From the NCBI GenBank assembly GCA_027485675.1, contig JAIXQP010000050.1:186001-250000 (forward strand): a DNA stretch of 64,000 nt, given 5' to 3'. The notes beneath the pieces are model-generated. The model was not told where the DNA came from, did no database searches, and saw only the letters and a program-made list of their open reading frames with translations. Shown here in pieces: positions 14,445 through 25,112 of the stretch; within the stretch, counting starts at the first letter, position 1; the number at the start of each line of letters is the position of its first letter. The DNA comes from Terriglobales bacterium (GTDB lineage Bacteria; Acidobacteriota; Terriglobia; Bryobacterales; Bryobacteraceae). A program made the position numbers and the translations under genes.

Positions 14445-14858
14445 ATGGGCCTGGTTCTGGACTCCTGCGTTATCGTCCTCGCCGAACGTCAGGAGCTGCC
14501 GGTGAGTTTGCTGCTCCGCCAGCTTCAGCAGCAACACGGCATTACGGATCTGGTTCTCTCAGCGATTAGCGTGGTCGAACTGGAGCACGGCATCTATCGC
14601 GCCCAGTCGCCGCAACAAGCCGCCAAGCGCCGCCGCTACTTGGAGACTGTCTTCGCCGCGATACCGGCAGTACCCTTCACCCGTGATATGGGCCAGATCG
14701 TTGCGCGAGTTGATGCTGAGGGTCGCAAGCGGGGAGTAGTCATTCCGTTCGCCGACCTTCTCATTGGAGGAACCGCGCTGCATTTCGGCTACGGACTCCT
14801 GACTCGCAACGAGCGCCATTTTCGGATGATCCCGAATTTATTGGTGCATTCGTTTTAG
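14445..14858 (+). CDS. VapC-type PIN-domain ribonuclease toxin
   Basis: A 137-residue PIN nuclease. The acidic pocket is complete: Asp6 (LVLDSCV), Glu45/47 (ISVVELEHG), Asp104 (IPFADLLIG) and the asparagine in LLTRNERHF. VapC toxins cleave tRNA or rRNA, and the adjacent antitoxin gene would neutralise it. Start ATG is 3 bp after the antitoxin stop. The pair looks intact. Confidence 0.88.
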   Translation: MGLVLDSCVIVLAERQELPVSLLLRQLQQQHGITDLVLSAISVVELEHGIYRAQSPQQAAKRRRYLETVFAAIPAVPFTRDMGQIVARVDAEGRKRGVVIPFADLLIGGTALHFGYGLLTRNERHFRMIPNLLVHSF

Positions 14859-14924: not shown

Positions 14925-15112
14925 CCGACCCCGCCAAACGGCCGAGATCTTTTTCGGGGCACGAGCTGCATCTGTGTCGGCCCCAAGGCCGGCATCGGCC
15001 TCCGCGCCGATTCGAACTTCACGGCCCCGGAGCCGGAGCTTGCCGCCGCGTTAGGCTCGAGGAGCATCGTCGGCTACACGATCACGAACGCTAAGCCGGC
15101 TTGGGACATGGA
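14925..15112 (+). pseudogene. Central fragment of the FAH-family gene
   Basis: This stretch matches the FAH gene at 12500-13345 over roughly residues 98-163. Matching peptide pieces include VGPKAGIGLRADSNFTAPEP, IVGYTIT and AWDME. It has small deletions (SNGR shortened to SR) and several substitutions, lacks both ends of the gene, and runs into unrelated sequence on each side. It abuts the 1.2-kb direct repeat. Confidence 0.85.
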
Positions 15113-15127
15113 GTGGGTGCCCCCCTA

Positions 15128-16335
15128 TGCGGATAGTCGGTATCCACTTTCAGGATAGGCGCTTCAAGGACGTCACCGTCCGGGCCTTGTTGTCCGCGAA
15201 AAGCGACAGGACCATCTGCGGTTGACGATGGTAGGTCACCGGCGATCTCGCTGGCGCATGAGTGGTTGGAAATGCCCAACATCTGACAAGACAGAAAGAG
15301 TCAATGAAAGCTCAGTTGCCCACGACGCATTCGTACGCCGTGCTCCTGACGAGCATCAACGAGCGGATTGAAACGGCCCAAGTGCGAGCGGCCGTTGCCG
15401 TCAACCAGGAGTTGGTTCTCCTCTACTGGGGGATCGGAAAGGAGATTCTCAACCGGCAAGTAGAGGAAGGATGGGGCGCGAAGGTCATCTCCCATCTGGC
15501 TGCCGATCTCGGTCGAAGTTTTCCCGAAATGAAGGGGCTCTCTTCCCGGAACCTCAAATACATGAGGGCTTTCGCCGATGCTTGGCCAGAGGAGGCAATT
15601 GTGCAGCAGGCTGCTGCACAATTGCCCTGGTTCCATAACTGCATCATTCTAGACAAGATAAAGGACAGGTCCGAGCGGCTCTGGTCCATCCAGGCCGCCG
15701 TCGAGCACGGCTGGAGCCGGAACGTTCTGGTCATCCAGATCGAGGCGCGACTGTACCAGCGGCAGGGCAAGGCCATCACCAATTTCACCAAAACCCTACC
15801 CGCCCCGCAGTCTGACCTCGCCCAGCAACTCTTAAAGGATCCCTATAACTTCGATTTCCTCACGCTGTCCAAGGACGCCAGTGAGCGCGAACTCGAAACC
15901 GGCCTCGTCGCACACATCCAGAAATTCCTCCTCGAACTCGGAACCGGCTTCGCCTTCGTCGGCCGTCAGGTTCCCCTCGAAGTCGCCGGCGAAGACTACC
16001 GGCTCGACCTTCTCTTCTACCATCTGAAGCTCCGCTGCTTCGTGGTCATCGACCTGAAGGCTGGACCCTTCAAGCCGGAATACGCCGGCAAGATGAACTT
16101 CTACCTCGCCGCCGTCGACGACACGCTCAAGCATCCCAGTGACAACCCGGCCATCGGGCTCATCCTCTGCAAAAGCAAAAAAGAACTGGTCGTGGAATAC
16201 GCCCTTCGCCACACTGCCACGCCGATGGGCATCGCGAAGTTCCGCCACCTGGAGAAGCTCCCTGCCCAATTCCAGGGAAGCCTGCCGAGCATCGAAGAGC
16301 TCGAGGCCGAACTCGGAACTGCCAACGCATCCGAG
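15128..16335 (+). repeat. Direct repeat copy 1, about 1.2 kb, carrying a DUF1016 gene
   Basis: This block aligns with 23360-24568 over its whole length at the same orientation with a constant offset near 8232 bp. It includes about 175 bp of upstream sequence (shared TGCGGATAGTCG, GACGTCACCGTCCGGGCC and GAAGCGACAGGACCATCTG pieces with small changes) and most of the nuclease gene. By eye about nine in ten bases agree, with most differences in the upstream part and the first third of the gene. Confidence 0.9.
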
Positions 16336-16341
16336 ATCTGA
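15304..16341 (+). CDS. DUF1016 / YhcG-family PD-(D/E)xK nuclease, copy 1
   Basis: A 345-residue protein. Residues about 10-160 are the helical DUF1016 N-terminal domain (VLLYWGIGKEI, LSSRNLKYMRAFADAW, GWSRNVLVIQIEA). Residues about 175-330 form a PD-(D/E)xK nuclease domain with Asp in YRLDLLFYH and the IDLK signature in CFVVIDLKAG. Such proteins occur with restriction-modification and mobile DNA; YhcG of E. coli is a probable Holliday-junction or DNA-processing nuclease, though roles vary. I chose the ATG at 15304 because copy 2 starts at the equivalent site with a clear AGGAG. The gene contains a perfect 33-bp palindrome. Confidence 0.88.
   Translation: MKAQLPTTHSYAVLLTSINERIETAQVRAAVAVNQELVLLYWGIGKEILNRQVEEGWGAKVISHLAADLGRSFPEMKGLSSRNLKYMRAFADAWPEEAIVQQAAAQLPWFHNCIILDKIKDRSERLWSIQAAVEHGWSRNVLVIQIEARLYQRQGKAITNFTKTLPAPQSDLAQQLLKDPYNFDFLTLSKDASERELETGLVAHIQKFLLELGTGFAFVGRQVPLEVAGEDYRLDLLFYHLKLRCFVVIDLKAGPFKPEYAGKMNFYLAAVDDTLKHPSDNPAIGLILCKSKKELVVEYALRHTATPMGIAKFRHLEKLPAQFQGSLPSIEELEAELGTANASEI
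15594..15626. repeat. 33-bp perfect palindrome inside DUF1016 copy 1
   Basis: Left arm GGCAATTGTGCAGCAG (15594-15609), a single central G, and a right arm that is its exact reverse complement (15611-15626). It lies in the coding frame, encoding IVQQAAAQL. Related palindromes sit at the matching place in the other three copies. Confidence 0.95.
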
Positions 16342-16530
16342 CCAGACCCGTCGGAGACCCTCCCCCTTGTTGCCGGATAGCAATGCAGTCACTGCAAGAC
16401 AAGGCGATCAGCCATTGAGCCTGCCCGTTGGGAGTCACTCGGGCTCGTCCGCCGTGGTGAGCCCGAAATCGGCGAGGACTACGTCCATCGATACCGTCAG
16501 GAAAGGCCTTTCTCCTTGAAACCTGAAGCT
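16342..16530. other. Spacer with degraded sequence, no gene
   Basis: No coding frame with family similarity. The piece around 16436-16515 resembles 24668-24760, downstream of DUF1016 copy 2 (shared GGGCTCG and TCGGCGAGGA blocks), so the duplicated unit may once have reached further than the clear 1.2-kb repeat. Confidence 0.45.
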
Positions 16531-16749
16531 GAATTTTTGCAACAGGCTGTTGCACAATTGCCATGGGGCCACAATGTTCCCCTCCTGGATCACGTCAAGG
16601 ACCGCAAGGAGCGTCCCTGGTACGCCAGGGCAGCTATCGAACAGAGTTGGAGCCGGAATGCTTTGGTGATCCCAATGGATGCGAGACTCCGCCAGCGGCA
16701 AAGCAAGGCGATCACCAACTTCGCCAAAACACTTCCCGCCCCGCACTCC
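16531..16749 (+). pseudogene. Central fragment of a DUF1016 gene
   Basis: The encoded peptide matches roughly residues 98-175 of the full nuclease: LQQAVAQLPWGHN, then WYARAAIEQSWSRNAL, then KAITNFAKTLPAP. The N-terminal domain start and the whole nuclease domain are missing. It has its own version of the internal palindrome (left arm near 16531-16545, right arm 16547-16562), now imperfect. An ATG at 16516 keeps it open as a short frame, but a functional product is unlikely. Confidence 0.85.
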
Positions 16750-16788
16750 GGCTGTGTCTATCCTACCCGGATTCGGGATGGGTGCAGC

Positions 16789-17187
16789 TCAAATGTCTGA
16801 GCCTCGCGCCTCCGCGCCGGTCCCGTTGCCGACGAGACCAGAGCAGCGAGCTATCGCCGGCGACGGTGAATGAGGAAATCGATCTTGATCATAGGGAGCC
16901 AAATACACCCTGTTGTCATGGTGGACCGAACCAATTCGAACTCGATCGAGCCAGCCAGTTCTTCCCAGCACGTTCTTGTCCATCATTGAATCCGCGAAGA
17001 AGTAGACGACGGGGGTCGTAGCGATGCCGAGCACACTCAGTTCTACTTCTTGGCCGAACGTATCGAATCCGCTGTTAGCGGTCCGGAACCGCCTGCGGAC
17101 TCCGTCTTCAAGGTTCAGGCCAAGCGCTTCCGCGATCTCCCCACTGAACAAACAAAATGAAGCCCCCGTATCGACACTCGCTGCCAA
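16789..17187 (-). CDS. Retropepsin-like aspartic protease domain protein
   Basis: A short protein (132 residues from a TTG at 17187). It opens with the aspartic protease signature VDTGASFCLF and ends with VLGRTGWLDRVRIG, which matches the second half of single-domain clan AA (retropepsin-like) proteins; such proteins act as dimers. The usual 15-25 residues before the DTGA motif are nearly absent: the frame is open upstream (ALGTSHGHLAASVDTGA) to a TAG but offers no ATG. The last 25 residues look like read-through. It may be 5'-truncated and inactive, but the domain call is firm. Confidence 0.6.
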   Translation of the reverse strand: MAASVDTGASFCLFSGEIAEALGLNLEDGVRRRFRTANSGFDTFGQEVELSVLGIATTPVVYFFADSMMDKNVLGRTGWLDRVRIGSVHHDNRVYLAPYDQDRFPHSPSPAIARCSGLVGNGTGAEARGSDI

Positions 17188-17216
17188 GTGCCCGTGACTC
17201 GTCCCCAGCGCTTGTG

Positions 17217-17480
17217 TTTGGGTCGTTTGGGAATCATCAGGTGGTGGTGGAACGGGTGGCGGAGTTGGCCGTCCCTAAGCGCGCCAGCCTTCCGTAGGGG
17301 CATCTGCCTGCCCACGTGGTCGTCTACAACGCCATTGCTATGGCGCTCTAAATGCGATCCTCTACGCGCGAGGTCCTTCGGTGCTTGCTTGAGGGCCTGC
17401 AATGGTTGCTCGACCCTTCGGCTCACATCAAAGTGGCCGGCCAGTCGGGACGTTGCGAAGAGGGTCCTGGGACTCTCGAG
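17217..17480 (+). pseudogene. IS4-family transposase N-terminal remnant
   Basis: One reading frame gives VVERVAELAVPKRASLP, a TAG, then GHLPAHVVVYNAIAMAL, a TAA, then REVLRCLLEGLQWLLDP and IKVAGQSG. This is the N-terminal pattern of IS4-type transposases (LPA..VVVY..LALAL...EVLR.L..GL). After GQSG the frame is lost. The DDE catalytic domain is absent, so the element is dead. No terminal inverted repeats were identified. Confidence 0.65.
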
Positions 17481-17733
17481 CGGAGTTCTTTTGGGTCTCG
17501 TGCCTTTTCTGGGGGGGAACCGGCGGAACGGTTTGACAGTGGCGGGTTCCACTGTGCCGGGGATTACCGTTCAGCGGGGCGGCACGGCGGGGGACGGGTG
17601 AACGAAGGGGGGGACTTGGCCGGCGGAGCGGTGGAAAAAAAGAGTGGAGGAGTGAGGGTGCGACGGGCTCGCTGTCGCATTCAGAGCAGGCGGATTAGGA
17701 AACGAACGCGGTCGCCGGTGAAGGAGAAGAGCC
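17481..17733. other. No gene seen
   Basis: GC-rich sequence with G-runs (for example near 17606-17614 and 17515) between the IS4 remnant and the PI-PLC-like gene. No frame with recognisable protein similarity or clear ribosome-binding site, apart from a GAAGGAGAAGAG purine stretch at about 17718-17730 that probably serves the next gene. Confidence 0.5.
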
Positions 17734-18777
17734 ATGAACCCCTTACGGCAGGGGCTGGGACTAAGCGTCCTGGCCACTACCAACCCAGCGCCGGGTTTCG
17801 CCCAATGGACCGATGCCGGCGGAAACCGGAACCAGCGTGCCTGTACCCACGGAGACGGAACGCCCGTCAAAATGGCCGCCGGAGTCAACCGGGCCGGTGA
17901 ACACGATTTGACGAATCAGGACGGAACCTGCCTGAACAAGAGCCGGAATGGCGATGCGACCAGGAGCACTTTCTGGACCGGATGGGCGCTGGAGAATCAG
18001 TCCCTGGGAATGGGGAAGGACAGGCCGATCCACTGCATTCCGTGGCCAACGGCGGGCCATGCGCACTCGAATAGCACCCAGGGCTCCGGTCCTTACCTGG
18101 ATACGAACCCTGTGATGTCGATGACCGACCCGTTGAACGCGGAAGCGCGGACGCTGGAGTTGGACCCAAAACAGTACGCCATGTTCCCACTGCCGCCATG
18201 CCTTCCCATCTCTGACGGCGCGATTCGGTTGCGCCCGGCATCGAGCACGGCGCTCCGCGCGCTGCCGGGCTACCGCAACCGGTTGTGTGGGTTCGCGCTC
18301 AACGAGATCGCCGACTGGGTCGACGCGAATCCAGGGCACGTGGGGTACCTGAAGCTGGATAACGACCGAGGGATCGGGAATGAGATCCAGGAGATGGATG
18401 ACGAGTGGGCGCGGTATCGGCATCACCGGGAGTCTCGTGTCTCCTCCGGGGGGCAGCGGCGGTGGCCGATGCTCGGGGAGATTCCCACCGCGCGCCGGTT
18501 GATTATCGTGGAGCCGCTTCACCAGCCGAGCCCCGTGAGTTCGCGATGGGTGTGGACAGCGGTGGGGTTGGGGCAGGAGGATGACCATCCGAAAGACCAG
18601 AACTTCGACACCCGCACGACCAATGGCGGGCTGAACCCGGTGCAGCGCGGACTGACCAAGCCGACGTTGTGGTGGAACGGGGCGGAGGGCCAGGCGAAGA
18701 AAGATATGGGCGTGTTCTGGAAAGACAACGTGGAGAAGGCGACTCCGTGCGGGGTCGCTTCGATTGGCTTGGACTGA
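17734..18777 (+). CDS. Degenerate PI-PLC-like phosphodiesterase
   Basis: A 347-residue protein with a short N-terminal signal-like stretch (LGLSVLATTNPAPGFA). The central part follows the layout of bacterial phosphatidylinositol-specific phospholipase C proteins: HAHSNSTQGSGPYLDTNP, then MTDPLNAEARTLELDP, then FALNEIADWVDANPG and YLKLDND, and a C-terminal PCGVASIGLD. One catalytic-type histidine (HSN) remains, but the second (usually RLCHG) has no clear counterpart, so activity is doubtful. A purine-rich ribosome-binding site lies just upstream. It is placed between two transposon remnants, which suggests recent movement. Confidence 0.5.
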   Translation: MNPLRQGLGLSVLATTNPAPGFAQWTDAGGNRNQRACTHGDGTPVKMAAGVNRAGEHDLTNQDGTCLNKSRNGDATRSTFWTGWALENQSLGMGKDRPIHCIPWPTAGHAHSNSTQGSGPYLDTNPVMSMTDPLNAEARTLELDPKQYAMFPLPPCLPISDGAIRLRPASSTALRALPGYRNRLCGFALNEIADWVDANPGHVGYLKLDNDRGIGNEIQEMDDEWARYRHHRESRVSSGGQRRWPMLGEIPTARRLIIVEPLHQPSPVSSRWVWTAVGLGQEDDHPKDQNFDTRTTNGGLNPVQRGLTKPTLWWNGAEGQAKKDMGVFWKDNVEKATPCGVASIGLD

Positions 18778-19300
18778 GGGTGTTCACGGATTTGTGTAAA
18801 CGGCTTCTCTAGACTTAGAGGAGCGAGATGGCACTTATCGGACCGGCTGATGGCCGGCTACGAGAAGCCCGAGGACCTGCTGGGCGAGAACGGACTGCTC
18901 AAGGAGATCCAGAGGCGCCTGCTGGAGCGGGCGCTGCATGCGGAGTTGAAGCACCACCTAGGCTACGCCAAGCATGCCACCGAAGGCCGCAACAGCGGAA
19001 ACAGCCGCAACGGCAACAGCCGGAAGCGACTCCAAACCGACCAAGGACCCCTCGAATTGGAGGTCCCGCGGGACCGCAACGGCACCTTCGAGCCCAAGAT
19101 CGTGCCCAAGCACCAGACCCGGGTGCCCGGACTCGATGACAAGATCCTCGCGCTGTACATGCGCGGCATGAGCGTACGGGATGTCCAACGCCACATGGAA
19201 GATCTCTACCAGGTCGAGGTCAGCCCAGCGCTGATCTCCGAGGTGACCGACTCGGTGTGGGACGAGGTGCAGCAGTGGCAGAACCGGCCGCTCGAGAAGC
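18778..19300 (+). mobile_element. 5' part of an IS256-family insertion sequence
   Basis: The transposase fragment starts at 18850, and the 70 bp before it begin with GGGTGTTCACGGATTTGTG, which resembles an IS256-type terminal inverted repeat. No matching right end was found; the element stops near 19292-19310 where it joins a broken nucleotidyltransferase gene. The left boundary is therefore likely and the right part deleted. Confidence 0.6.
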
Positions 19301-19368
19301 TGGGCCGCGTCGGCTTCAAACTCGACCAGCATATCCACATCGCTCTCGGTACGAAATCGGGGGGGTAA
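18850..19368 (+). pseudogene. Truncated IS256-family (mutator) transposase
   Basis: 172 residues remain of a protein normally near 400. Recognisable pieces are EKPEDLLGENGLLK, LERALHAELKHHLGY, SRNGNSRKRL, LEVPRDRNGTFEPKIVPKHQ, LYMRGMSVRDV and ISEVTDSVWDEVQQWQNRPLE. The DDE catalytic region that should follow is gone; after about residue 150 the frame reads antisense sequence of another gene. It cannot be active. Confidence 0.88.
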
Positions 19369-19459
19369 CTGAACCGAAGAAGGAAAGTTTACGGATCTCA
19401 TTCCGGCGGCAGAACGCTGCAATCTCTTCGCTAGGAACGGCGATGGGTAGAGCAGGCAT
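19300..19459 (-). pseudogene. Broken MNT-type nucleotidyltransferase antitoxin fragment
   Basis: On the minus strand an ATG at 19459 begins PALPIAVPSEEIAAFCRRNE and IRKLSFFGSV, the start of MNT/MntA-like minimal nucleotidyltransferases. A run of seven C residues (minus strand, about 19361-19367) shifts the frame, and the next frame continues FRTESDVDMLVEFEAD, which carries the metal-binding DxD. Downstream the gene is cut by the IS256 remnant. Such proteins pair with HEPN toxins; no HEPN partner is present here. Confidence 0.75.
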
Positions 19460-19940
19460 CGAACAGGCTCCGAAGCCCAGTCTGGCACGCGCTAGTTGTC
19501 GGGCGTGGCGCCGTTTTCCGTGCAACGGCCTTGCGGCCAAACGTCTCGATATGAGCCGGAGGCGGACCTCGATTGGCACCCTGTCGGCAGGCGACTTTCC
19601 GATTGCGAACACGGACGACCTCAATCACATCGATAGCCAGTTGGTGGCACAAAGTGCCACGAACCGATACGAATGCGTCAGAGAGGCGGGACACACACCA
19701 CGAAGAGATTAGTTGAGGCGCCTCGAGAACACACATGCAGAGGATCGATGTAAACGGCTCGATAGCCGGGATACACATGGTTCCAGCACCAGATGAAAGC
19801 AAGCCGGCGGAGCCCCATGCTGTACCAGCGGTCATGTCCTTTTGGAAAGCCGCCAAGGGCTACCCGCAACCGCCTCTTACCACTGTAGAGCGCCCAACCT
19901 TCATGGGAGCGATTCAGTCTGTCCTACCTGCGGCAACAAT
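19460..19940. other. No supported gene
   Basis: About 480 bp between the broken nucleotidyltransferase and the RelE toxin. Open frames exist on both strands but none shows a recognisable family or sensible codon use. A minus-strand peptide with GLRRLAFIWCWNHVYPGY near 19790-19840 looks like a protein remnant that I could not identify. Confidence 0.4.
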
Positions 19941-20189
19941 CTAGCGATAAGCCTCTTTACGGTCCGAGACACGATGAATTGAGATAAGGTCTGCGGTCTC
20001 CTCAAAGAAGATTCGGTAATTGCCAACCCGGAGGCGCAGATATCCTGCGAACTCGCCAGATAAAGGCTTGACGTGGCCCGCTCCAGTTTCGGCGTAGCGA
20101 TGAATGGCTTCGAGAATCGCCATCGCTAAGTGCTGCGGAATGGCGCGAACTTGCGCTGGGACCTGCGGTTCGAAGTAAATCTTCTTCAA
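19941..20189 (-). CDS. RelE/ParE-family toxin
   Basis: An 82-residue protein with the RelE core: IYFEPQVPAQVRAIPQHLA at the start, ETGAGHVKPLSGE in the middle and LRLRVGNYRIFFEE at the end. RelE toxins are ribosome-dependent mRNA endonucleases, ParE toxins poison gyrase; the sequence does not separate them clearly, though RVGNYRI favours RelE. The antitoxin gene ends 5 bp upstream on the same strand, so antitoxin is translated first. Both genes appear intact. Confidence 0.85.
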   Translation of the reverse strand: MKKIYFEPQVPAQVRAIPQHLAMAILEAIHRYAETGAGHVKPLSGEFAGYLRLRVGNYRIFFEETADLISIHRVSDRKEAYR

Positions 20190-20194
20190 AACCG

Positions 20195-20473
20195 CTAGTC
20201 GCCTTTAGATCCGGCGCGAATCTGCTCCATAGTGAATCCAAGATCGGCGACGACATCCTCGAACGGGATACCCTGGCCCCCGTTGCGGAAATATTCATCA
20301 GAGGCACGCAAAGCCTGACGGTCAGCTTCGGTGAGTTCTTCATCATCCTCATCGTCGTCGAGCATGTCTTCGAGGAGAGAGCGAACCGTACCTAGCTTGG
20401 CTGGGGGCAGTTGATCGAGCAAAGCGTGAACTTGTTTCAATTCAGTGTCGATATCGAGGGCCATGCGGGTCAC
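20195..20473 (-). CDS. Antitoxin partner of the RelE-like toxin
   Basis: A 92-residue acidic protein, N-terminally helical (LDIDTELKQVHALLDQLPP), with a very acidic centre (DMLDDDEDDEEL) and ending IPFEDVVADLGFTMEQIRAG. The short size, charge and position 5 bp before a relE-like gene define it as the antitoxin. A second possible start ATG lies 9 bases inside. It shows no classic ribbon-helix-helix that I can point to. Confidence 0.75.
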   Translation of the reverse strand: MTRMALDIDTELKQVHALLDQLPPAKLGTVRSLLEDMLDDDEDDEELTEADRQALRASDEYFRNGGQGIPFEDVVADLGFTMEQIRAGSKGD

Positions 20474-20566
20474 ATCCTTGCTGACAGCAGCAGACTAATT
20501 TTACCAGCAGCTGGCGAGCCGCTTCCAGGCTCGGTTCAAGCTCAGTAAGGAAGCTGCCAATGAGTG

Positions 20567-20701
20567 GCCGTCGACGAAGGTCAGTTCGAAACCGATCCCA
20601 AGTACATCGCCATCGGCCGCAAGGAAAACGGCGAACCCCTCTGCGGCGGCAACCGGCTCACCGGCGGCGCCTACGACAAGGGCTACTTCGTCGAACCCAC
20701 C
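20567..20701 (+). pseudogene. Internal fragment of the aldehyde dehydrogenase gene
   Basis: About 135 bp match the aldehyde dehydrogenase gene at 12005-12141 (residues 323-367) with only a few base changes; peptide pieces include YIAIGRKENGEPLCGGNRLT and GAYDKGYFVEPT. The match stops abruptly on both sides. It is fused directly to the 5'-truncated antitoxin gene that follows. Confidence 0.92.
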
Positions 20702-20702
20702 T

Positions 20703-20918
20703 TCACGCGTTGAACAGAGCTATCGAGAGGAAGCTCTGGCCCGGGGTATCAGAATCGATGAACTGGTGAGCGAATTCCTGATCTCTCACCAACCACCGGT
20801 CTCTGCAGCCGAGGAGTCCGGCCTGGGTCTGTTCGGTAGTCCGGAAGATGCGGAATTGATGGACGAAGTTGTCGCCATGGCGAGGGAGCTTCGCCACCAC
20901 CCATCCCGGCGTCTCTAA
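20703..20918 (+). pseudogene. VapB-type antitoxin lacking its 5' end
   Basis: In one frame the sequence reads RVEQSYREEALARGIRIDEL, then VSEFLISHQP, and ends LMDEVVAMARELRHHPSRRL with TAA at 20916-20918. That is the C-terminal half of an antitoxin, and it sits 20 bp before a PIN toxin gene. The N-terminal DNA-binding part and its start codon have been replaced by the aldehyde dehydrogenase fragment, so the protein could be made only from an internal start such as the GTG near 20764. Confidence 0.7.
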
Positions 20919-20938
20919 TCGCTGCGAGGCGGAAGGTC

Positions 20939-21493
20939 GTGCTCGATACAGACATCCTCTCCGAGTACTTGAAAGGCCACGACAAATCTATTGCCCGGCA
21001 AAGCGAAGCCTACCTGAGCGTTCATCGAGTATTCACGTTCACATCCATTACGGCATACGAAATTACGTGCGGACTTCGGGTGAAAAATGCCGACCGCCAG
21101 CTGCAGCGGGTGATCCCATGGCTGGACCGCAATCAGGAGTTGGCGCCAATCGGAGACGATTTCCGCTGGGCGGCGCGGATAAAGGCCTCCGCGCGGAGGT
21201 CAGGTTTTGTTGTCGAGCTTCCGGGATGCCTGATCGCCGCGGTGGCTGTCCGCCTGAACCCGCCGCTCGTCACAGGAAACACAGCGGACTACGAGTCCAT
21301 ACGCAACGCCGGAGCCGCACTGGAACTTCAAAACTGGCGGGTAGGACTCTCGATCAAGTGCCTTGAGCAGTCGGAGCGCCGAGTTGCGGCCAATGGCGCG
21401 AGCATCAGCATGGGTTTCCAAGGTCCAGAGGAGGCGCTTGGCCATTCAGCTTGGCTACCCGTTCCCAGTGGGCACACCGTTCTTCTCCAGTAA
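20939..21493 (+). CDS. VapC-type PIN-domain toxin with run-on C-terminus
   Basis: Starts at GTG 20939 with LDTDILSEYLKGH, the first PIN motif, followed by TSITAYEITCGL (conserved glutamate), and LIAAVAVRLNPPLVTGNTADY, where the usual acidic residue before IAA is replaced (GCLIAA). Family members end near residue 115-135 (here ALELQNWR); this frame runs to 184, reading through sequence antisense to a RelE-like remnant. Loss of the native stop, loss of one catalytic acid and damage to its antitoxin gene suggest an inactivated system. Confidence 0.65.
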   Translation: MLDTDILSEYLKGHDKSIARQSEAYLSVHRVFTFTSITAYEITCGLRVKNADRQLQRVIPWLDRNQELAPIGDDFRWAARIKASARRSGFVVELPGCLIAAVAVRLNPPLVTGNTADYESIRNAGAALELQNWRVGLSIKCLEQSERRVAANGASISMGFQGPEEALGHSAWLPVPSGHTVLLQ

Positions 21494-21600
21494 ATCGGCT
21501 CGCCAACATGCAGACCGAACGATTCCCCCGAATGGCTTTACATCGCCCTTGCCGGTTGCGACGATACGTCTGAGGTCTACTCGACGCAGAACGCGAGGGC
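21350..21600 (-). pseudogene. Scrambled RelE-like toxin remnants
   Basis: On the minus strand KRLLWTLETHADARAIGR and ALRLLKALDRE (about 21345-21445) look like the N-terminus of a RelE-family toxin, while RRIVATGKGDVKPFGG (about 21525-21575) looks like the middle of one. They lie in the wrong order and in different frames. This is a weak call from short peptide pieces. Confidence 0.35.
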
Positions 21601-21671
21601 CCTCGCCGGTGCCACGTTGTTTCCCAGTGCCGCGCCCCCAACCGAACGATGGAACCGAAGAACGTGAAGAA

Positions 21672-22301
21672 ATGGGCCAATCGCTTGACCAACTCATTCG
21701 AACTCTGCACCCAAACGTGGACGTTGTAATTTCGAACACATGGATGTGCCCGCCTGAATCAACAGGGGATGAGGGATGGCAACGCTTTCTGCAGATTCAC
21801 AATGGGCTATCAGCATTCCATGGTGGGCTGCGCATTTTCGGGACCACAGCGGATCCCCTTCCAGCCTTAGACGCCTGGAATTCCGCTGAGGCATGGAGAA
21901 TGGCGTACCGGGGCCTCGATGAAGGACTTTACTTCTTTGCGGAAGATATCTTCGGCAACCAGTTTGGCTTTGATGGCGTGGGAATGGTGTTCCGGTTTTT
22001 GGCAGAAACCGGGGACCGAGAACTCTGCGGCACGGGATTTGAAGACTGGCTCGCGCTGATGCTGAGCGATCCGACCGAGGAACTCAGCCTTTGGCTGCTT
22101 GACGATTGGCTTAAAGAGAACTCCAAGCTAAGCTTGTCAGATCATCTGTGCCCCAAGATTCCTTTCGTGGCCCGGGGAGCTACAGAGGCTGGCAACCTGT
22201 ACGCCTGCGATCGGTTGGAAAGCATGCGCTTCAAAGGTAGCTTTGCGCACCAGATTCGCAACATGACGAGTGGAGAAAAGGTTCGGCTCCATGTGCGGTA
22301 A
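21672..22301 (+). CDS. SMI1/KNR4 (SUKH)-like protein
   Basis: A 209-residue protein. The segment WQRFLQIHNGLSAFHGGLRIFG fits the SUKH core (a helix, then NG and a strand), followed by LYFFAEDIFGNQFGFDG, the usual middle block. SUKH proteins often serve as immunity proteins against secreted nuclease toxins or in contact-dependent systems, but no toxin gene is next to it. Start ATG at 21672 follows a GAAGAA purine stretch. It has a C-terminal part (CPKIPFVARGATEAGNLYAC) with two cysteines. Function is inferred from family only. Confidence 0.65.
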   Translation: MGQSLDQLIRTLHPNVDVVISNTWMCPPESTGDEGWQRFLQIHNGLSAFHGGLRIFGTTADPLPALDAWNSAEAWRMAYRGLDEGLYFFAEDIFGNQFGFDGVGMVFRFLAETGDRELCGTGFEDWLALMLSDPTEELSLWLLDDWLKENSKLSLSDHLCPKIPFVARGATEAGNLYACDRLESMRFKGSFAHQIRNMTSGEKVRLHVR

Positions 22302-22436
22302 GCCCGCGAATCCGCCCGAGCCCGCAGTGCGGCCGATAGGGGTCGACAAACCCGCGGCGAGCGCAGGTCCGCCCGAAGTCGCATTCTTGCACTCGTTGGG
22401 TACGCCGACTCCGGCAACGGGCTTGCTCAAAGACAG

Positions 22437-22530
22437 AAGCGCTTTCGCCGATGCCAGCCCTGAGGAATCAATTTTGCAGCAGCCTGTTGCAAAGTTGCGT
22501 GGTTCGAAAACTTCACCCTCTGGGACAGAG
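22437..22530 (+). pseudogene. Small DUF1016 fragment with the palindrome
   Basis: About 90 bp match the DUF1016 genes around the palindrome: peptide SAFADASPEESILQQPVAKL, then a one-base deletion. Arms at 22469-22482 and 22484-22497 pair with two G-T changes. This is the fourth copy of that region in the window and the shortest one. Confidence 0.75.
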
Positions 22531-22653
22531 CCGGTCTCGGTTTCGCGGCGAATAGAACGGAGAGCTCGGCGTAGCTGGCGATTCGGACTGCGCTCGCCCT
22601 CCGGGCGGTTGTGGCGAATTGGTCGACACCCAGAATGGAGGTTGAGGGTTGTG

Positions 22654-23073
22654 TTATTCCCCCTTCTTACATCGCCGCACCAGGTCGGCAGGCGAGAGGA
22701 TCGATGTGGTTCGGCGCCGCTTCAGGCCGAGCAGATGCTGATCGCCCGTGACCAGATAATGAGCTTGTCCGGTTTCCGCAATCGCCAGCAAGTAATTGTC
22801 GTCAGGGTCGGGCGAACGATCCACAACGGGCAGCGGCCCTACCACGAAAGCGACATCGCGAAGGCGGTTGACCAATCGCCCAGCGAGCGCCGGGGAAAGA
22901 AGCGCCCGAATCTTCGGGTAGCGCGTCACTCGCGTGATCTCGTCCAGTTGTTCCGCTGCGGTCAGAATCACAATCTTCCGGTTGAGCCAGAGCGCATAGA
23001 TCTCCGCGGAGGGCGACACCGGAGAAATGAGGGCGCTCAGCAACACGTTGGTATCAAGAACTAGCCGCTTCAT
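22654..23073 (-). CDS. PIN-domain toxin (PIN_3 type)
   Basis: A 139-residue PIN protein of the putative toxin type with an early KRLVLDTNVLLSALI and a mid-protein VVDRSPDPDDNYLLAIAETG, the acid-rich centre typical of PF13470, followed by HYLVTGDQHLLGL. All acidic positions expected for the nuclease pocket appear present. Its ATG overlaps the antitoxin gene's stop by 4 bases (ATGA-type), showing translational coupling. Likely a functional RNase toxin. Confidence 0.85.
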   Translation of the reverse strand: MKRLVLDTNVLLSALISPVSPSAEIYALWLNRKIVILTAAEQLDEITRVTRYPKIRALLSPALAGRLVNRLRDVAFVVGPLPVVDRSPDPDDNYLLAIAETGQAHYLVTGDQHLLGLKRRRTTSILSPADLVRRCKKGE

Positions 23074-23348
23074 TTTCGCAAACGAACTTTGCGCTCGCGC
23101 CGCTTTTCGCCCCGAACGCTGTGTACGGCTTCGTTGAGCAGGTTGTCGAGTTCCTCAACGGGAATCACTGCGAACGCTTCGCGCACTTCGCCAACGGTTT
23201 GGTGGAACAGCCGCCACTTCACGGCGTCCTCGATGAACGCCGAAATTGCGCCCTTCTTCAATCCCTGTGAACCAAGATGCGAGCGCAGGGCGAGATCGGT
23301 GTCCTTGGACCAACTGATGGTGAGGCGGGTACCGGAGGTTGTAGGCAT
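23070..23348 (-). CDS. Antitoxin partner of the PIN_3 toxin
   Basis: A 92-residue basic protein from the ATG at 23348, beginning PTTSGTRLTISWSKDTDLAL, a ribbon-helix-helix-like start, followed by KKGAISAFIEDAVKWRLF. The C-terminus is strongly basic (RGEKRRERKVRLRK). It overlaps the toxin gene by 4 bases. The open frame extends upstream into the 1.2-kb repeat, but that part is not similar to any protein. The divergent region 23349-23537 lies between it and the DUF1016 gene. Confidence 0.75.
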   Translation of the reverse strand: MPTTSGTRLTISWSKDTDLALRSHLGSQGLKKGAISAFIEDAVKWRLFHQTVGEVREAFAVIPVEELDNLLNEAVHSVRGEKRRERKVRLRK

Positions 23349-23359
23349 GGGTGAACCTG

Positions 23360-24568
23360 TGCGGATAGTCGTATATCCACTCTTCAGTATAGGCGCTTTG
23401 AGGACGTCACCGTCCGGGCCCTGTTGTCCGCGAGAAGCGACAGGACCATCTGTCGTTGACGATGGCTGGTCACCGGAGATCTCGCTGCCGCGTGACTGGT
23501 TGGAAACGCCGAACATCTGATAAGACAGAAGGAGTCCATGAAAGCTCAGTTGCCCACCAAGCAGTCGTACGCCGCACTCCTAACGAGCATCAAGGAGCGG
23601 ATCCAAACGGCCCAAGTGCGAGCGGCCGTTGTCGTCAACCAGGAGTTGGTGCTCCTCTACTGGGGGATCGGGAGGGAAATCCTTGCACGGCAGGAGCAGG
23701 AAGGCTGGGGCAAGAACGTCATCCCACGCCTCTCCAAGGATCTATCCACGGAGTTCCCGGAGATGAAGGGCCTTTCCCCCAGAAACCTCGGCTACATGAG
23801 GGCTTTCGCCGAGGCATGGCCGGATGAGGCAATTTTGCAAGAGCCTCTTGCAAAATTGACCTGGTTCCACAATCTCACCCTTCTGGAGAAGATCAAGACC
23901 CAGCAAGAGCGGCTCTGGTACGCCCGTGCAGCTATCGAACACGGCTGGAGCCGGAACGTTCTGGTGGTCCAGATCGAGGCGGGACTGTACCAGCGGCAGG
24001 GCAAGGCAATCACCAACTTCACCAAAACTCTACCCGCCCCGCAGTCTGACCTCGCCCAGCAGCTCTTAAAGGATCCTTACAACTTCGACTTCCTCACGCT
24101 GTCCAAGGACGCCAGTGAGCGCGAACTGGAAACCGGCCTCGTCGCGCACATCCAGAAATTCCTCCTGGAACTCGGAACCGGCTTCGCCTTCGTCGGCCGC
24201 CAGGTTCTCCTCGAAGTCGCCGGCGAGGACTACCGGCTCGACCTTCTCTTCTACCATCTGAAGCTCCGTTGCTTCGTGGTCATCGACCTGAAGGCTGGAC
24301 CCTTCAAACCGGAGTACGCCGGCAAGATGAACTTCTACCTCGCCGCCGTCGACGACACGATCAAGCATCCCAGTGACAACCCGGCCATCGGGCTCATCCT
24401 CTGCAAGAGCAAAAAGGAACTGGTCGTTGAGTACGCCCTTCGCCATACCGCCACGCCGATGGGCATCGCGGAGTTCCGCCACCTGGAGAAGTTGCCCGCT
24501 AGATTCCGGGGAAGCCTGCCGAGTATTGAGCAGCTCGAGGCCGAACTGGGAGCCGCCGAAACGTCCGA
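23360..24568 (+). repeat. Direct repeat copy 2, about 1.2 kb, carrying a DUF1016 gene
   Basis: The partner of 15128-16335. In this copy the left end abuts the toxin-antitoxin promoter region, and the gene has an additional C-terminal tail; the other copy abuts the FAH fragment. Same-direction repeats of this size and identity could recombine and delete or circularise the roughly 8.2 kb between them. Confidence 0.9.
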
Positions 24569-24644
24569 TTCCAAAGACACCTCGGCTGCTCGCCGGCGAG
24601 GTCGTCCTCGTACCGTGACCGCCCGCGCCCAAACGGAAAAGTAA
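23538..24644 (+). CDS. DUF1016 / YhcG-family PD-(D/E)xK nuclease, copy 2
   Basis: A 368-residue paralogue of the protein at 15304-16341. N-terminal DUF1016 domain with VLLYWGIGREI, LSPRNLGYMRAFAEAW and GWSRNVLVVQIEA; nuclease domain with DYRLDLLFYH and CFVVIDLKAG. The nuclease halves of the two copies are nearly identical, while the N-terminal thirds differ more, including EQEGWGKNVIPRLSKDL here against EEGWGAKVISHLAADL. A basic tail (ARRRGRPRTVTARAQTEK) extends the C-terminus and is missing in copy 1. An AGAAGGAG ribosome-binding site precedes the ATG. Confidence 0.9.
   Translation: MKAQLPTKQSYAALLTSIKERIQTAQVRAAVVVNQELVLLYWGIGREILARQEQEGWGKNVIPRLSKDLSTEFPEMKGLSPRNLGYMRAFAEAWPDEAILQEPLAKLTWFHNLTLLEKIKTQQERLWYARAAIEHGWSRNVLVVQIEAGLYQRQGKAITNFTKTLPAPQSDLAQQLLKDPYNFDFLTLSKDASERELETGLVAHIQKFLLELGTGFAFVGRQVLLEVAGEDYRLDLLFYHLKLRCFVVIDLKAGPFKPEYAGKMNFYLAAVDDTIKHPSDNPAIGLILCKSKKELVVEYALRHTATPMGIAEFRHLEKLPARFRGSLPSIEQLEAELGAAETSDSKDTSAARRRGRPRTVTARAQTEK
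23830..23858. repeat. 29-bp perfect palindrome inside DUF1016 copy 2
   Basis: Left arm CAATTTTGCAAGAG (23830-23843), central C, and exact complementary right arm ending at 23858. It encodes ILQEPLAKL. Compared with copy 1, the changed bases in one arm are matched by complementary changes in the other. Confidence 0.95.
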
Positions 24645-25112
24645 GGTGCCTGAGGGAGGAGCCTGTCTGCCTAAGGGGGACTCGGGCTCGCCAGCCGCGG
24701 ATTCAAACATCCGGATGGTGAAGCTAAAGTCGGCGAGGAGGACCTCCACCAATACGGAGCCAAAACTCGAGTTGGAAATCGACAGCCATACGAATCTACT
24801 CCCTGCTGCCCCGGAACCCATCCGGGCGGCGGCCCGGCGGGGCCTCGAACCCCGCCGGACCGCTCGAAAAACATCCCACTCCGCAAAAAGTCTACTCCGC
24901 CGCCCCGCCAGTTCAGAGCATTCCACTTTTTTTCACTTCCCCCAACTCCCTCAATCCAAACCACTTCCCCGTTTCGCCCCGCCGCCCGGCCCCCGGTTGC
25001 CTTGACACCATATGCTACCGTTTTGGCGAAGGTGCTCTTCTTCCTCTTCCGGAGGAAAAGGGCGCCTTTTTCCATTTCCCCCTTCGAAAACGAAAAAAGT
25101 GGAGTTAGGATC
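24645..25112. other. No gene seen; downstream end of the accessory island
   Basis: About 470 bp without a believable gene. Positions 24668-24760 resemble 16436-16515 after copy 1. The part around 24815-24960 is rich in C and poly-pyrimidine stretches. The final 110 bp contain a purine-rich stretch and a GGAGTTAGGA ribosome-binding site for the next gene. Confidence 0.5.

Follow-up and report, generated by a model that had tools for sequence, protein, structure and literature searches.

Palindromic DNA within genes has been described in several settings, and each of them has something in common with the element reported here, a short hairpin inside the DUF1016/YhcG nuclease genes of a Terriglobales bacterium, found in a 64 kb stretch of its 6.6 Mb genome (the window; contig JAIXQP010000050.1, with coordinates below given as positions in this stretch). 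Rickettsia palindromic elements (RPEs) are selfish units of ~100-150 nucleotides (nt), inserted between genes, in RNA genes and in coding sequences (PMC4316617). Like them, the DUF1016 hairpin is in-frame palindromic DNA inside open reading frames, in tolerant parts of the protein; unlike them, its unit is ~27 nt long, keeps mostly to one homologous place of one family and has arms of free sequence. Neither a length of 100-150 nt nor many unrelated insertion places were found, one arm type having 4 places in its own genome. Palindromic amphipathic repeat coding elements (PARCELs), 75-nt repeats with imperfect dyads that are associated with membrane proteins (PMC2996958), are likewise variable-number coding repeats (DUF285 repeats) with dyad symmetry across many taxa. 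The DUF1016 units differ from them in their near-perfect pairing with measured compensation between the arms and in lying in a nuclease gene, and the 25-residue DUF285 repeats were absent from the two intact genes of the window. Repetitive extragenic palindromic (REP) elements are also short hairpins, some of which have been proposed to be moved by a dedicated enzyme, the REP-associated tyrosine transposase (RAYT). They are high-copy and mostly intergenic, and most carry GTAG or CGTC tags (PMC3733652), whereas the DUF1016 units are low-copy, mostly intragenic and go with a PD-(D/E)XK enzyme. No high-copy extragenic distribution and no GTAG or CGTC tag was seen, the commonest flanks being ATT, TTT or AAA on the left and AATT or AAAT on the right.

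Quasipalindrome template switching shares homogenized arms with the DUF1016 site, and its inverted loops have a possible counterpart there, but it has been described as a mutation process (PMC8604942), whereas the DUF1016 site is retained by a single family in many phyla. Perfect inverted repeats are also kept in functional protein-coding genes of nematomorph mitochondria, where they reach 284 bp, in one animal phylum (PMC6649704). No description of the present palindrome was found in the literature covered on DUF1016, YhcG, coding palindromes and quasipalindromes, a partial coverage with most subscription papers outside it; within that literature, the DUF1016 hairpin lacks the defining features of RPEs, PARCELs and REPs and is apparently new. 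DUF1016/YhcG is a widespread nuclease family for which the literature covered gives no settled function, and a palindrome kept for its symmetry, not for its letters, gives an unusual and strong indication of what the enzyme recognizes. Our preferred reading, to which we give a probability of about 0.4, is that the palindrome is a DNA hairpin element, the putative structural target of its own nuclease, whose arms would be renewed by template switching and selection. If this is true, a nuclease and its target system would share the same nucleotides in distant bacteria, in archaea and in Escherichia coli K-12.

The palindrome in the window and in the family

The palindrome is real and is the rule of the DUF1016 family. 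The two intact genes of the window, copy 1 at 15304..16341 (ATG at 15304, in a frame open from a GTG at 15262) and copy 2 at 23538..24644, lie on the plus strand and both belong to the family: each joins an N-terminal DUF1016_N domain (PF17761; E = 7.9e-43 and 7e-45, respectively) to a C-terminal PD-(D/E)XK domain, YhcG_C (PF06250; E = 2.3e-63 and 2.9e-62). These were the only domains that a profile search found in either gene, and the two copies are 86.9% identical over 1187 nt. As a preliminary description of this DNA had stated, both contain a perfect palindrome, of 16+1+16 nt at 15594..15626 in copy 1 and of 14+1+14 nt at 23830..23858 in copy 2, with cores of 8+3+8 nt at 15601-15619 and 23835-23853. 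The near palindromes that it had reported in two broken copies, also on the plus strand, are present as well, each with 7 of 8 core pairs. Fragment A (16501..16748; blastn pieces 16501-16524 and 16535-16748 against copy 2, covering PF17761 positions 81-137) has its palindrome at 16531..16562, with the core at 16537-16555 and the mismatch at ±9; fragment B (22426..22523; blastn matches 22426-22515 to copy 1 at 78% and 22438-22523 to copy 2 at 77%) has it at 22469..22497, with the core at 22474-22492 and a G-T pair at ±4.

Three core pairs differ between copies 1 and 2, every one of them altered on both sides, and the encoded peptides are unlike (AIVQQAAAQL and AILQEPLAKL). When the whole 64 kb was scanned for inverted repeats with a centre of 0-1 nt, only the two perfect palindromes reached the reporting score of 10. 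Folded as single-stranded DNA and compared with 200 dinucleotide shuffles, the intact sites gave z values of -5.8 (copy 1) and -4.3 (copy 2), and the broken sites were slightly better than their shuffles (-1.3 and -1.8). The 4 places in the host genome that match the copy-type pattern with up to three mismatches all fall in DUF1016 genes or fragments; a control pattern matched 0 places there. Among the matches listed, the closest named relatives of the window gene are from Acidobacteria, several of them from Bryobacterales.

Loci for a wider comparison were drawn from 201 relative genomes, of which 65 carry PF17761, from named genomes (at least 80 loci), viral contigs (3 loci), pattern hits, and phylum samples around three other loci, where the domain was present in 52/299, 122/296 and 61/246 genomes; 160 chosen stretches were added, six of them chosen to inspect extra palindrome hits. 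The final set held 385 loci, 383 domain hits and 354 unique DUF1016 genes, with fragments under-represented because the choice of loci leaned to full-length matches. Under a hairpin score that reads the arms outward from a free 3-nt centre, 311 of the 354 genes score at least 7 at the site and the mean is 9.42, against a mean of 3.62 for 100 synonymous shuffles of each gene that follow its particular codon usage. Tested gene by gene, 262 of the 354 have p ≤ 0.01 and 319 have p ≤ 0.05, and other windows of the same genes score at least 7 in 42 of 3802 cases. Absence of the palindrome from most DUF1016 genes elsewhere, or complementarity arising as often after synonymous shuffling, had been named beforehand as grounds for abandoning the idea; neither was observed. 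In the named loci, 78 genes were counted in 76 of 80 loci, with full cores in 47, seven pairs in 21 and fewer in 10, and the hosts include Acidobacteria, Planctomycetes, Cyanobacteria, Chloroflexi, Proteobacteria, Elusimicrobia, Chlamydiae, Patescibacteria, archaea and others. Even in very distant phyla, the single unit occupies the same homologous codon position.

Because selection by pairing score would bias the anatomy, sites were placed by protein alignment alone in genes of two regular lengths (256 of the 354, giving 244 unique 33-mers; the 98 genes of other lengths were left out). At least seven of the eight core pairs are formed in 220 of the 244 sites and all eight in 150, although there are 98 distinct left arms among them. 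At each of the positions ±2 to ±9, 210 to 239 sites have a Watson-Crick pair, where the base composition of the columns would give 97 to 164; outside ±9, pairing is at or near expectation, so that the stem ends sharply. The ±1 pair is weak (147 sites against 110 expected), and the centre is therefore a 3-nt loop, which reads purine-N-pyrimidine (R-N-Y) in 234 of the 244. The element is thus an 8-bp stem of free sequence with a 3-nt R-N-Y loop and the A/T-rich flanks given above, 19 nt in its core and ~27 nt with flanks. The symmetry about a single base that was originally described is perfect in the two intact copies, and the family data refine it to a free 3-nt loop between arms of 8 bp.

Arrays, Escherichia coli yhcG and units elsewhere

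Hits in the right register that score at least 6 occur at least once in 318 of the 354 genes, and two to five of them, in frame and often 36 or 39 nt apart, in 46; of the five hits in L255, one is a pairing between neighbouring units. Units within one gene often have different arms, each paired with itself, which speaks most strongly against one sequence-specific binding site. Three units, at a spacing of 39 nt, are present in yhcG of E. coli K-12; they form 7, 7 and 8 core pairs, and the one unpaired position of the first unit is paired in other strains. A 401-nt K-12 query for E. coli yhcG had matches in 4383 of 5426 genomes. Among 19 E. coli yhcG regions, units were read in 11 and then in 15 (MB20, one of the 15, was not placeable). 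Three units are found, for example, in K-12, D8 and Y5, two units with other arms in WP5-S18-ESBL-08, 20AH011, LWY24, GPEC709 and FDAARGOS_1371, and one unit in CEC13004 and 2013C-4538, CEC13004 being without 78 nt, in frame. The second units of WP5-S18-ESBL-08 and 20AH011 differ by a two-sided change at ±8, as well as in the loop and at base +2. With three units in yhcG of K-12, and one, two or three in natural alleles of the species, the role of the element can be tested in a standard laboratory strain. The E. coli arm-type pattern had no match in two plasmids and one phage record. In five of the 19 regions (L423-L425, L432, L434), transposase genes adjoin an incomplete yhcG; these partial matches were picked deliberately and give no frequency.

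In the 1.12 Mb of the 385 loci there are 235 strict units inside DUF1016 domains and 23 outside, both counts freed of repeats within 80 nt in the same or reverse reading, against 1 in a reversed-sequence control that was not so freed; a chance origin is rejected by this control. The 23 outside units lie mostly near a DUF1016 gene and still include pairs from overlapping or near-identical loci, as well as terminator-like hairpins. With its three outer pairs left free, a pattern for one arm type matched 34 of the 201 relative genomes: 29 of the 65 that carry DUF1016 and 5 of the 136 that lack it. Of its 44 places, 34 coincide at least in part with a DUF1016 match when judged by hand; a control pattern gave 0 over the same 201 genomes. 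A second arm type was followed in 30 chosen genomes. Its 20 places, in 7 genomes, are all in or between DUF1016 matches, and 16 of them are fully complementary at the three pairs that the pattern leaves free (both by hand); there was none in the 20 chosen genomes without the domain and none in 3 of the 10 with it. The palindrome also occurs in Phage WO (7/8 pairs) and in two plasmids (8/8).

Extra copies lie at or upstream of the gene start in some loci (L059, L071, L022). In three loci of one phylum sample (L306, L308, L310), an extra unit stands 78-79 nt upstream of the domain match, and in a Deinococcales genome (L099) a short DUF1016 frame is followed by a second downstream in tandem, their palindromes being of different arm type. 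A stretch without a DUF1016 match (L247, contig C26 of genome G066) also holds two units that differ in arm type and are separated by 276 nt.

Arms, loops and competing explanations

Changes in the arms were compared in 118 disjoint sister pairs, formed from the closest proteins with the palindrome columns excluded and near-identical pairs collapsed. Stem positions had changed on both sides with pairing kept in 152 cases, on one side in 82 and on both sides without pairing in both sisters in 27, and 81 of the 118 pairs have at least one compensated position. The two-sided changes often alter amino acids. The arms are thus made alike, as is typical of quasipalindrome hotspots. In a second sister pairing, without the collapse, loops differ in 83 of 118 pairs, and 16 of these 83 are exact reverse complements, against 9.6% expected from shuffles (p = 0.001). 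Template switching, which characteristically leaves inverted loops (PMC8604942), had been suggested from the outset as the source of the matched changes; this remains plausible, but the excess of inversions is only a hint, because many of the cases are also single C-G steps and because only 2 of the 14 loop differences found with identical arms are inversions.

The residue x of the W-x-H motif that follows the palindrome covaries with arm bases -4 and -3: A-C goes with G (68/82), G-C with F (32/37), A-G with Y (20/26) and C-G with T (23/23). It likewise tracks the amino acid that the right arm encodes (V-G, A-F, L-Y). This coupling may reflect packing inside the protein; shared ancestry contributes, and a recognition residue would behave likewise.

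In a structure predicted from 46 sequences, the palindrome would encode residues 99-107, a short helix end and the loop between helices 81-93 and 109-118, and this linker could be a place able to take insertions. The best fold matches of this weak model are nucleases of the Cas4/MGME1 kind, and no solved relative was found by sequence. The YhcG nuclease domain has been predicted to resemble Holliday-junction resolvases (PMC1189080), and deletion of yhcG has been reported to be synthetic lethal with hypomorphs of dnaB, dnaN and parE (PMC2672614); it is for these reasons that we favour a DNA hairpin or cruciform recognized by YhcG. Going beyond the observed covariation and compensation of the arms and their strong link to the family, we infer the following. 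The linker that joins two predicted helices in the N-terminal domain of YhcG/DUF1016 would hold an intragenic DNA hairpin element, and what is kept would be a DNA structure, hairpin or cruciform, and not a sequence. That structure would be a target or control site of the YhcG nuclease itself, recognized by its shape; template switching across the hairpin may copy one arm onto the other, and selection would keep the re-matched arms. The statement that YhcG/DUF1016 genes carry the putative substrate of their own enzyme, a sequence-free hairpin that dictates amino acids and multiplies into in-frame arrays, is advanced tentatively.

Several observations weigh against a hairpin kept as the target of its own nuclease. 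Poor stems of six pairs or fewer are found in 24 of the 244 sites, and a VQE-x-LAQ type with a poor stem occurs in several phyla. Full pairing does not differ between broken and intact genes (11/22 and 191/321, p = 0.38). With mutation directions unmatched, G-T mismatches are in faint excess over A-C (20/514 against 13/667), which would allow for a minor RNA contribution. Five loci (L188, L223, L247, L248, L374) hold units that no DUF1016 match covers. Of the 44 places of the first arm-type pattern, 10 are off DUF1016 matches, two of them in or beside broken DUF1016 pieces, and one genome without detected DUF1016 (G099) has a full 8-pair core by eye, the other four hits in such genomes being imperfect by eye. 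The predicted structure, too, is weak overall (mean predicted local distance difference test score 62, better in the N-terminal half), and its N-terminal domain could not be placed.

That codon or peptide constraint alone is at work, with LQQxxAQL merely back-translating into a palindrome, has almost no probability in our view. The LQQxxAQL type is common in the subfamily of the window, but unrelated peptides also yield palindromes at the site, synonymous shuffles score 3.6 where the genes score 9.4, and the choice of codon tracks the partner base. Dealing right arms randomly among genes lowers the mean pairing from 7.38 to 3.95 of 8 (at most 4.28 in 500 deals); with deals within the same right-arm peptide (162 genes), it goes from 7.62 to 7.45, a small drop that is beyond all 300 shuffles (largest 7.52). 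Of the 1220 cells at third codon positions, 1148 are paired, and one Gln codon is CAA opposite T in 100/107 cases and CAG opposite C in 40/40. Nucleotide pairing clearly overrides protein sequence here. Shuffles, family alignment and codon choice agree that the matched arm changes exceed codon expectation, as the preliminary description had proposed, and the codon-only explanation that it had wished to see considered is refuted by the shuffles and by the partner-dependent codons. An mRNA hairpin that controls translation or decay, another of its suggestions, is improbable. The coding strand, folded as DNA, does give a stable stem with a 3-nt loop, and the faint unmatched G-U excess points the same way, but a selected mRNA stem would be expected to allow G-U. 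With mutation directions matched, G-T is not significantly commoner than A-C (17/359 against 11/331, p = 0.44; 3/155 against 2/336, p = 0.18), which argues against such a stem and largely rejects it; a search of Rfam with window positions 15000-24800 gave no match either. The low tolerance of G-T is what would be expected from a DNA structure, a DNA dyad or copying between arms. More improbable still is a small palindromic mobile element with DUF1016 genes as its insertion targets: the in-frame arrays, the variable number of units within E. coli and the units outside DUF1016 matches would suit it, but pattern matches were found in 15 of 22 genomes at only one to four places each, mostly DUF1016 loci, and the single unit keeps its homologous codon position across very distant phyla.

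The main rival, which we regard as doubtful, is a functionless palindrome that perpetuates itself, with template switching correcting the arms and the linker tolerating the result. It would account for arms that change jointly despite the amino-acid changes and for the loop inversions (16/83), and the process has been described in yeast coding genes (PMC8604942). A purely mutational process or recent breakage would also give equal pairing in broken genes, and a neutral copying drive is therefore compatible with the likeness of broken and intact copies. On the other hand, other windows of the same genes are seldom palindromic, the conserved R-N-Y loop, the A/T flanks and the sharp limit at 8 bp are not expected from such a process, and some lineages retain mismatches, which means that correction is not inevitable. 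Rather unlikely, too, is a dyad-symmetric site, at which a dimer of the N-terminal domain would bind lineage-specific half-sites, so that the arms only look paired and the upstream copies are operators. Strict symmetry with no significant G-T preference, the extra copies at or upstream of gene starts and the change of W-x-H residue x with the inner base pairs all speak for it. Yet several units with different arms in one gene are hard to fit to one specificity, and residue x follows the right-arm residue, maybe through protein packing.

Breaks and neighbours of the window copies

Fragment A has a small deletion adjoining the left arm of its palindrome, and the homology of fragment B ends 18-26 nt beyond the right arm; the breaks thus lie close to the palindrome and not at its centre. 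The earlier suggestion that a recombination site explains the fragments is weak on this evidence, and nothing can be proved from two cases. A further short DUF1016 copy elsewhere in the genome (L003, contig C3, 13167-13535) is without the palindrome, and in its protein AWP is directly followed by WLHN, as it would be after a clean deletion of the hairpin.

Between the DUF1016 copies of the window lies a truncated transposase of the Mutator family (PF00872; 18850-19368). The surroundings of the copies are rich in toxin-antitoxin-like genes, at 14445-14858, 19941-20189, 20939-21493 and 22654-23516; the set comprises a ParE-like toxin, PIN domains (the one at 20939 scoring under the Pfam cut-off) and a ribbon-helix-helix gene that adjoins a PIN_3 gene.

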